31,267 nucleotides of DNA. Source: a virus. Of this stretch, positions 5,318-18,151 are shown in pieces (the first letter of the stretch is position 1; every line of letters begins with the position of its first letter). Under the pieces are notes generated by a model. That model was given only the letters and a program-made list of their open reading frames with translations, ran no database searches and was not told the origin of the DNA. Made by a program: the position numbers and the translations under genes. The DNA lies in the IMG/VR virus record IMGVR_UViG_3300021509_000010, positions 1 through 31,267 of that record; one strand, written 5' to 3'.

Positions 5318-5484
5318 ATTTTACCTCCTTTTTTATGTTTTTTCATTACTACGTAGACTTGATCTAGTTCTAATCTGCCGCAATTTGGGCAGATGGCGTA
5401 GTCAGTACCGTCTTTCATATTATCGCTGTCGTAGTCGTTTAAAATGATTTTGACTGGACTATTACATATCTTACATCTTATCAT
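5314..5484 (-). CDS. Zinc-ribbon mini-protein, 56 aa
   Basis: Starts at ATG 5484 behind a GGAGGT site. The residues MIRCKICNSPVKI contain one CxxC pair at C4 and C7, and AICPNCGRLELD has a second near residues 32-35, so the protein is a classic zinc ribbon with two knuckles. The C-terminal KKHKKGGKI is basic, and its codons provide the ribosome-binding site of the next gene. Such ribbons usually bind nucleic acid or mediate protein contacts. The start overlaps the upstream gene by 14 nt and the stop overlaps the next ATG. Confidence 0.75.
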   Translation of the reverse strand: MIRCKICNSPVKIILNDYDSDNMKDGTDYAICPNCGRLELDQVYVVMKKHKKGGKI

Positions 5485-5710
5485 ATTTTACCTCCTTAAG
5501 TTTCCTTCCGTATATTTTCGTCAGGATTTCAATATCCGTATCGTCTTTGTATTCGTCAACTTCGATTTTGACTCCATTGAATTTGAACGATACAATACAA
5601 TGCCTTTCTTTTGCCAGGTGTATTGCTTCTCTTAACGTTTCTTCTAGTTCCGCACCTGGCATTACTTTAACGTATGTTATTGGAATGATATGCCTATAGT
5701 ACATATTCAC
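5471..5710 (-). CDS. Hypothetical protein, 79 aa
   Basis: Starts at ATG 5710 after GGAGGTGAAT. It begins MNMYYRHIIPITYVKVMPGA and contains a helix (LEETLREAIHLAKE) between beta segments, ending KLKEVKYDKM. The pattern suggests a small alpha/beta fold. It lies directly downstream of the tmRNA-like RNA at 5724-5788, whose 3' end is only 13 nt before this start, so RNA processing there would trim this mRNA's leader almost to the ribosome-binding site. No family recognised. Confidence 0.75.
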   Translation of the reverse strand: MNMYYRHIIPITYVKVMPGAELEETLREAIHLAKERHCIVSFKFNGVKIEVDEYKDDTDIEILTKIYGRKLKEVKYDKM

Positions 5711-5723
5711 CTCCTTACGTTAG

Positions 5724-5788
5724 TGGATGCGGCCGGAATCGAACCGGCGTCCGATAGCAAAATGCTATCGTCGAAACCTACCGCACCC
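5724..5788 (-). ncRNA. Miniature tmRNA-like RNA (tRNA-like domain without an mRNA-like domain)
   Basis: Read on the minus strand from 5788 to 5724. A 7-bp acceptor stem (GGGTGCG with CGCATCC) has a G3-U70 wobble and A73, the known identity elements for alanyl-tRNA synthetase. A D-loop region GTAGGTTTCGAC matches the tmRNA consensus GG-N-TTCGAC and has no D-stem. Then GATAGCA, TTT, TGCTATC form a perfect 7-bp hairpin, then GGAC as in tmRNA, then a T-arm GCCGG, TTCGATT, CCGGC. The hairpin has neither a normal anticodon arm (seven pairs, or a seven-base loop with A at position 33) nor room for a tag reading frame. CCA is not encoded. It sits in an operon between small genes. Probably a 65-nt alanine-accepting, SmpB-type RNA; function is inference. 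Confidence 0.7.
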
Positions 5789-5801: not shown

Positions 5802-5966
5802 TTATTTTTCTGTGAATCTGTCAAGTCTTTTGTTTATTTTATGCAGTAGTCTTATCGCTAGGGCTATTATAGCAGTTACGATACTGTTTACGGCCTCTTT
5901 TATGTTCTCACTGAATATCGCACCGATAGCCAAACCTACTAACATTACGATTATAACGAAGAACAT
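5802..5966 (-). CDS. Small membrane peptide, 54 aa
   Basis: Starts at ATG 5966 after AAAAAGGAGGTGATT. The first 17 residues (MFFVIIVMLVGLAIGAI) form a transmembrane helix, and a second hydrophobic stretch (IVTAIIALAIRLL) follows near residues 28-41, ending in the basic HKINKRLDRFTEK. The topology is one or two passes with a basic cytoplasmic tail. It lies 13 nt upstream of the tmRNA-like RNA, so both are probably on one transcript. Role unknown; small holin-like or regulatory membrane peptide. Confidence 0.65.
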   Translation of the reverse strand: MFFVIIVMLVGLAIGAIFSENIKEAVNSIVTAIIALAIRLLHKINKRLDRFTEK

Positions 5967-6122
5967 AATCACCTCCTTTTTTGTTATTTAAAATTTAAGC
6001 CCTTGCGGAATAACCCGCAAGGGCTGTGGCCACCTTCCTCCATTTGTCCCGGGGCCCTCCATCCCCATACTAACGGGACCCTCCTATTGCGCTAATAACA
6101 GGCATTGCGCTAACGCAATGCC
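5967..6122 (-). promoter_or_regulatory. Structured intergenic RNA with two perfect hairpins
   Basis: In transcript order there is a 9-bp hairpin GGCATTGCG/CGCAATGCC (6101-6122) overlapping the stop of the previous gene. Next comes a purine-rich G stretch with a GTCCCG/CGGGAC stem, then a 10-bp hairpin GCCCTTGCGG/CCGCAAGGGC (5998-6023) followed by TTAAATTTT, which could act as a weak terminator. A possible 26-codon frame (5988-6068) lies inside. It lacks the 16-bp motif of the other leaders. Confidence 0.5.
5988..6068 (-). CDS. Possible 26-aa leader peptide
   Basis: AGGAGG precedes an ATG at 6068 by 11 nt, and the frame MGMEGPGTNGGRWPQPLRVI continues to a TAA at 5988 for 26 residues. Composition (Gly/Pro/Trp) and GC content are unlike the neighbours, and the DNA is constrained by RNA hairpins, so coding is uncertain. 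It could be a leader peptide read through the 10-bp hairpin, or a by-product of a G-rich RNA. Confidence 0.25.
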   Translation of the reverse strand: MGMEGPGTNGGRWPQPLRVIPQGLKF

Positions 6123-7030: not shown

Positions 7031-7059
7031 AAAAAAATAGCCCTGCCGTTAGGCAGGGC
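7031..7059 (-). terminator. Intrinsic terminator, first of a tandem pair
   Basis: GCCCTGCC (7040-7047) and GGCAGGGC (7052-7059) form an 8-bp stem with loop GTTA, followed on the minus strand by TATTTTTTT. It lies just after the stop of the gene ending at 7076. Confidence 0.9.
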
Positions 7060-7075
7060 TTATACTAACGCGACA

Positions 7076-17782: not shown

Positions 17783-18151
17783 ATGAAGATTAAATGGGCA
17801 TATGATACTTTTAGGTCTGTTATGTTGATTTCAGATAAATTCCTACATTTATCTGCATCGTTTGCTGCTGCTCTAATCCTACATTTTCAGACGAAATGGT
17901 CTATTTGGAATATATGTATTCTCGTAATTGTGGGCGGTATAATCTGGGAATTCCTTGAAATGTTTTTTGCAGATGGCATATCATGGAGAGACATTGTTGC
18001 GAATCTTATTGGTATAGGAGTATTCGTATTATTCATTAAAGGATTCTTTATCATAGCAGTTATTGTCGTTGTAATAAGCTATATTTTATTCAACTGGGAA
18101 ATGTTGGTTTTGTACATTAAAGAGCATGTTAAAAAACGTAAATCGAGGTAA
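17783..18151 (+). CDS. VanZ/DUF2279-like membrane protein, 122 aa
   Basis: Starts at ATG 17783 after AGAGGGAATT. It contains SDKFLHLSASFAAALI, GGIIWEFLEMFFADG and SWRDIVANLIGIG: the D..H...E..D..D..N pattern of VanZ/DUF2279-type proteins with three to four membrane helices and conserved polar residues (D18, H22, E56, D69, N73). It also has a basic C-terminal tail. Such proteins often sit in lysis or exclusion cassettes. Its exact role is unknown. Confidence 0.6.
   Translation: MKIKWAYDTFRSVMLISDKFLHLSASFAAALILHFQTKWSIWNICILVIVGGIIWEFLEMFFADGISWRDIVANLIGIGVFVLFIKGFFIIAVIVVVISYILFNWEMLVLYIKEHVKKRKSR

Follow-up and report, generated by a model that had tools for sequence, protein, structure and literature searches.

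The minus strand of a 31-kb virus fragment with terminase and portal genes raises the question of why a virus should carry the tRNA-like domain (TLD) of tmRNA without a message. In host trans-translation a protein is tagged and then degraded, as is its mRNA. The fragment was analysed over its whole length of 31,267 nucleotides (hereafter the window), and the existence of a 65-nt, hairpin-closed TLD at 5788-5724 was confirmed. The window terminase was found to be far from those of cultured phages (30% at best), and a DNA search of the window against cultured phages gave no match.

The minus strand of the gene, from 5788 to 5724, was found to contain 5′-GGGTGCG GTAGGTTTCGA (CGATAGCA TTT TGCTATCG) GAC GCCGG TTCGATT CCGGC CGCATCC A-3′, where the brackets enclose the hairpin, and a genomic CTA (5723-5721) was located directly 3′ of A73. 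The gene, its parts and its two co-oriented neighbours were located as follows:

5721-5788, minus strand: mini-tmRNA gene, 5788-5724 to A73 plus the genomic CTA at 5723-5721 (from Rfam RF00023, the fold z score and the relatives)
5782-5788, minus strand: 5′ strand of the acceptor stem, GGGTGCG, with G3 opposite U70 (from sequence and fold)
5771-5781, minus strand: D region GTAGGTTTCGA, a tmRNA-type D loop without a D stem (from sequence, Rfam alignment and fold)
5752-5770, minus strand: hairpin CGATAGCA-TTT-TGCTATCG, the stump of tmRNA helix 2 (from sequence and hairpin covariation in relatives)
5732-5751, minus strand: GAC linker and T-arm GCCGG-TTCGATT-CCGGC (from sequence and fold)
5724-5731, minus strand: 3′ strand of the acceptor stem, CGCATCC, with U70, and the discriminator A73 (from sequence and fold)
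5802-5972, minus strand: upstream co-oriented ORF encoding a small hydrophobic protein of 56 aa, with 13 nt between its stop codon and the RNA
5471-5704, minus strand: downstream co-oriented ORF of 77 aa from the ATG at 5704 (from the ORF list)

The acceptor of the window copy contained 7 of 7 pairs, including G3-U70, and A73 was present. The D region (GGTTTCGAC) was found to be stemless, and the GGAC linker was followed by a perfect 5-bp T-arm. Helix 2 leaves between the D loop and the T-arm, as in the tRNA-like domain of tmRNA, and is represented by a hairpin of 7 bp with a TTT loop (8 bp if the final C of TTCGAC is taken to pair with the G that opens GGAC), which stands in for the whole mRNA-like and pseudoknot body, some 300 nt in bacterial tmRNA. 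The Rfam tmRNA model (RF00023; gathering cut-off 47 bits) was aligned end to end with the window copy at 63.7 bits (E 7.6e-23), with about 308 model positions reduced to 3 nt and the body pseudoknots absent. No tag reading frame with a resume codon was found in the window copy, where only 17 nt separate TTCGAC from GGAC. Canonical bacterial tmRNA thus shares with the window copy all the features of the tRNA-like domain and differs from it in having the tag frame, the resume codon and the pseudoknots. The minimum free energy was -34.5 kcal/mol and that of shuffles -20.0 ± 3.0 (z = -4.8); the lone strand reaches this minimum in a different pairing, the TLD fold itself having -30.3. As the genome has CTA after A73, a CCA end would need the CCA-adding enzyme. 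The anatomy described in the original prediction (acceptor with G3-U70, A73, stemless D region, T-arm and 7-bp hairpin with TTT loop) was borne out by sequence, fold and RF00023.

Two other classes of RNA were considered for this locus and rejected. ARAGORN made no call over the window, missing the mini-tmRNA and finding no tRNA, and the D stem of an ordinary tRNA is lacking. A permuted (two-piece) tmRNA was rejected on the standard order of the pieces and on a score of just 19 bits with the permuted model.

The spacing to both co-oriented ORFs was found to be tight, the AAGGAGG ribosome-binding site (5716-5710) of the 77-aa ORF starting 4 nt past the CTA of the RNA, so that co-transcription followed by putative processing of the RNA is likely. 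The product of the 77-aa ORF contained a weak match to PHROG 10085, of unknown function, and no PHROG match was found for the 56-aa upstream product. A terminator-like hairpin was located on the minus strand at 6025-5998, upstream of the mini-tmRNA. The gene had been predicted to be co-oriented and co-transcribed with early genes; the co-orientation and tight packing held, whereas the co-transcription with early genes did not, given this hairpin. A second terminator-like hairpin was found at 7039-7060, also on the minus strand and upstream of the RNA, and the positions of the two hairpins suggest separate transcription units in this region.

Relatives were collected from IMG/VR and cultured-phage records by a DNA pattern with a short gap between TTCGAC and the GGAC-T-arm. 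Because TTCGAC, GGAC and a portion of the T-arm were required by the pattern, nothing can be concluded from their conservation. Sequences were admitted to the final set only with A73 and with 6 or 7 of the 7 acceptor pairs, and the pair type at 3:70 was left unselected. The first scan, before any acceptor filter, gave at least 119 viral contigs, and among those listed 115 contained a full acceptor (116 counting the window). Four pattern scans together with the cultured-phage records gave at least 251 viral loci with at least 169 unique sequences of 61-82 nt. Two size classes were found by hairpin insert, one of 12-22 nt (17 in the window) and one of 26-34 nt, the latter having an internal loop plus a further small hairpin, in many cases CCGCACGCGG or CCGCATGCGG. 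CCA was genome-encoded in 51 of the 169 unique relatives.

The cultured carriers were the Streptomyces phages LuckySocke, GiJojo, pSt2308, BRock and Shaeky and the Stenotrophomonas virus Jojan60, and the mini-tmRNA itself was unannotated in all six; the LuckySocke copy was located at 17977-18054 of OR725497. ARAGORN reported a tmRNA at none of 16 carrier loci. A tmRNA match of mini size was found in all 35 viral records screened, 34 of them exceeding the Rfam cut-off, and a full tmRNA in none of the 35, many of which are fragments. SmpB was not encoded in the window, nor in any of 40 viral records, many of the records screened being fragments. The same pattern in GTDB genomes matched mostly the 3′ ends of ordinary tmRNAs, with mini-tmRNAs on about 8 contigs; a separate full-length tmRNA was present in 7 of 8 bins checked, binning being no proof of the host.

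Although the pair type was left unselected, G3-U70 was found in 168 of the 169 unique relatives, and G-U made up at most 3% at the other variable acceptor positions. The one exception (L025) contained a shifted acceptor whose 3′ strand lacks two bases. The acceptor was paired at 7 of 7 positions in 168 of 169 (at least 6 pairs being required). The original prediction of a tmRNA domain without a message held up and is made stronger by this near-constant alanine identity in the relatives. Covariation was counted on anchored columns because the MAFFT alignment misplaced the 5′ strand. Two-sided changes were found at acceptor base pairs 4-6, T-stem base pairs 1-3 and hairpin base pairs 1-5 in tens to more than 100 sequences, mostly still paired; this covariation of acceptor, T-stem and hairpin far exceeded that of shuffles and held in 38 sequences below 71% identity.

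The relatives of the terL-portal lineage were gathered by the portal protein, independently of the RNA. The RNA was located between terminase and portal in 31 of 80 such loci, all with G3-U70, and compensated acceptors were found to contain GGGGATG/CATCTCC, GGGGACG/CGTCTCC and GGGCCGT/ACGGTCC. In other close relatives of this lineage the RNA was cleanly absent, with no debris. A second lineage was found to have the RNA in few of its relatives, where it stands upstream of the gene for the major head protein, and L555 and L576 contained a compensatory change of the hairpin-closing pair from C-G to U-A. Judged on these sequences, the intact-or-absent pattern of the examined lineages is that of an accessory gene under selection and not of decaying sequence. 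The same architecture with compensatory stem changes, for which a search of related phages had been proposed, was therefore found, and the free decay named beforehand as evidence against the gene was not seen in the terL-portal lineage.

The genomic contexts of the relatives included terL/portal, head protease/major head protein, a DnaB-like helicase and tRNA arrays. Gene clustering around 96 copies gave several different contexts, with no universal neighbour as a fixed protein partner. Most copies were located outside tRNA arrays; in Streptomyces phage Shaeky, with 16 tRNAs, the mini-tmRNA was found between tRNA-Phe and tRNA-Leu, and RNA ligases were found near it in LuckySocke and BRock. For the window's own region, no relatives were found through its 745-aa neighbour protein, and its 118-aa neighbour protein gave six loci, none with a tmRNA match; these searches thus yielded no syntenic relative of the window copy. 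Since the neighbours differ and SmpB was not found in the viral records, the partners of the RNA are presumably host factors.

The form had been considered to belong to no described class, and on this point the original prediction was incorrect, as the TLD-only ssrA of phage DS6A and the CDS-less plastid and mitochondrial forms were already known. The ssrA of mycobacteriophage DS6A was listed as 'TLD only' by Hudson et al. 2014 (PMC4131195). According to the account of Mao et al. 2009 given there, a molecule similar to that of DS6A strongly inhibits tmRNA whether or not it can be charged, with titration of SmpB as a possible cause (PMC4131195), and the DS6A form was reported by Nawrocki et al. 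2025 to inhibit endogenous tmRNA in E. coli (PMC11915505). As far as its description allows comparison, the DS6A RNA (Phage__Mycobacterium.9) resembles the window copy in being phage-borne, with little beyond the TLD and no tag frame, and its proposed target is SmpB and tmRNA (PMC4131195, PMC11915505). The window copy differs in its 17-nt hairpin insert and encoded CTA, and its phage is not known to be related. 'Standard, no CDS' forms made up 9 of 97,179 unique tmRNA sequences, phage sequences numbering 79 in all (PMC11915505).

Together, SmpB and fragments of the TLD mimic a tRNA (PMC3929946; PMC3985003), and the TLD of an SmpB co-crystal (PDB 2CZJ) is described in PMC3985003 as the 5′ 25 nt, a UUCG loop and the 3′ 34 nt. 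Such engineered fragments contain the same acceptor, D loop, short closed helix 2 and T-arm; they are artificial, whereas the phage mini-tmRNA is encoded by a gene found in nature and closed by a hairpin of its own. The CDS-less tmRNAs of mitochondria and of Mallomonadaceae plastids (about 65 bp in plastids) have likewise kept the tRNA-like domain and lost the tag frame (PMC11915505), but they are organellar, mostly permuted and two-piece in mitochondria, and the sole tmRNA there. Full-length phage tmRNAs (the mycobacteriophage Bxz1 group; Streptomyces phages with the tag ANSNFALAA; the two-piece form of Melnitz) share the phage location and the alanine identity, and differ in retaining the tag frame and most of the body.

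The mini-tmRNA form is thus not new, and the new content is its breadth and conservation, which the reports on DS6A do not give. TLD-only interference of phages with ribosome rescue was represented by one RNA, that of DS6A, and is now extended to at least 251 viral loci in which the alanine identity is nearly always kept, so that what was a minor curiosity becomes a viral RNA family that is large, conserved and represented in culture. Phage tmRNAs had been surveyed earlier with ARAGORN (PMC9004378), a tool that does not report mini-tmRNA forms. If functional, the RNA would be a frequent phage RNA that lacks annotation, and a natural means to probe the messageless use of tmRNA by SmpB, AlaRS and the ribosome, and the cultured carriers make it experimentally accessible now.

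With moderate confidence, and by analogy with DS6A, the RNA is interpreted as alanine-charged and bound by host SmpB and EF-Tu, acting as a messageless competitor of host tmRNA at stalled ribosomes and reducing tagging in infection. The sequence shows a gene set between phage genes of the same orientation, with every feature of the tmRNA domain, the alanine identity G3-U70 and A73 included. Its transcript would be matured by host RNase P and the CCA-adding enzyme, charged by AlaRS, and bound by host SmpB and EF-Tu. The resulting Ala-mini-tmRNA-SmpB may then contend with host tmRNA over both SmpB and stalled ribosomes, consistent with the biochemical and DS6A precedents, and, as it contains no resume codon, no tagging would be directed and host trans-translation would be blunted. 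The inhibition of trans-translation offered in the original prediction is, as an interpretation, backed by the same precedent. A pure inhibitor has two points against it: trans-translation can also help phages, so that its benefit is not obvious, and CDS-less tmRNAs persist in mitochondria and plastids without a normal tmRNA, so that a positive role is possible. Titration of SmpB alone also fails to explain the invariant G3-U70, because inhibition in E. coli needed no charging. The fixed pair suggests a natural mode beyond mere SmpB titration, which may include delivery of alanyl-RNA to ribosomes, and tagless rescue and untemplated alanine addition are therefore live rivals of the competitor.

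In tagless rescue, Ala-mini-tmRNA-SmpB would enter stalled ribosomes, take the nascent chain and eject the broken mRNA, and the peptidyl-mini-tmRNA would drop off or be hydrolysed; ribosomes would be freed during the burst and phage proteins would not be tagged for proteolysis. The strict G3-U70 implies that charging, and hence peptide transfer, matters, the RNA is placed within the late structural operons of some lineages and within the tRNA arrays of translation-rich phages, and CDS-less mitochondrial tmRNAs are kept with SmpB and thought to help with incomplete mRNAs (PMC11915505). However, expression in E. coli of the sole phage case tested, DS6A, led to inhibition of endogenous tmRNA, and without a stop codon no step for efficient peptide release is known, which leaves this explanation possible but doubtful. 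Repeated rounds of Ala-mini-tmRNA-SmpB might instead extend stalled chains by untemplated alanine, like C-terminal Ala tails. The near-invariant G3-U70 would agree with this, as would the polyalanine made in vitro without mRNA by SmpB and a TLD fragment in the work of Shimizu and Ueda 2006 as cited in PMC3929946; alanine addition is nevertheless improbable, being seen in vitro only, with no known benefit to a phage and with a vacated A site needed after each translocation. A wider proposal, that the viral RNA family with host SmpB performs tagless trans-translation or adds alanine, silencing host tagging while keeping ribosomes running in many lineages, can be put forward tentatively and is rather unlikely.

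Also improbable is a decoy or stand-in role in countering host defences directed at translation, in which an anticodon-less alanyl RNA would absorb or evade toxins directed at tRNA or tmRNA. The large tRNA set of Shaeky and the RNA ligases of LuckySocke and BRock would fit such a role, but it is opposed by the location of most copies and by the fact that no defence system with such a target is identified. A remnant of an ssrA attachment site, or a pseudogene from integration, was rejected as very improbable, even though ssrA is often an integration site (PMC11915505). The RNA has both of its halves in full, with a covarying hairpin linking them, and the copies of relatives are intact or absent, not decaying. 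A tyrosine integrase was found in 6 of the 35 related records screened, and its distance from the RNA was about 1 kb or more in each. The identity with host gene ends that would mark a remnant was looked for in the five bins with both RNAs, where the mini-tmRNA shared only 16-28 of 31 acceptor and T-arm bases with the bin's own tmRNA. As similar copies in hundreds of viruses nearly always retain the alanine identity, the RNA probably serves viruses widely, either to counter host ribosome rescue or to replace it.

Several further loci were recorded. The ARAGORN tRNA-Glu call at 8486-8576 of L097 spans the mini-tmRNA and is an example of mis-annotation for such RNAs. A mini-tmRNA at 568-646 of L193 (Cellulosimicrobium cellulans MP1 contig 3) was located near genes with matches to phage glycosyltransferase families; this contig of 472 kb is labelled as an isolate and is possibly a prophage or phage contig. 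A diverged relative in Streptomyces phage Riptide (L295, 2477-2554) contained the acceptor GGGTTTG/CAAATCC with G3-U70 and a AAAGCCGCACGCGGAAC hairpin motif; as it lacks TTCGAC and GGAC, the family is wider than the scan pattern. In Stenotrophomonas virus Jojan60 (L289, ON045087) the deposited strands of four tRNAs were opposite to those of ARAGORN. The BLAST matches in cyanophages were rejected as mini-tmRNAs, being permuted tmRNAs. This layout was found in Synechococcus phage S-CRM01 (L288, HQ615693), S-CAM1 (L290, HQ634177) and S-SSM7 (L293, GU071098), which contained the acceptor 3′ piece followed within about 6-8 nt by a GGGG-type 5′ piece with TTCGAC. No tmRNA is annotated at the matched site in these three, and the site in S-SSM7 carries the annotation of a hypothetical protein.
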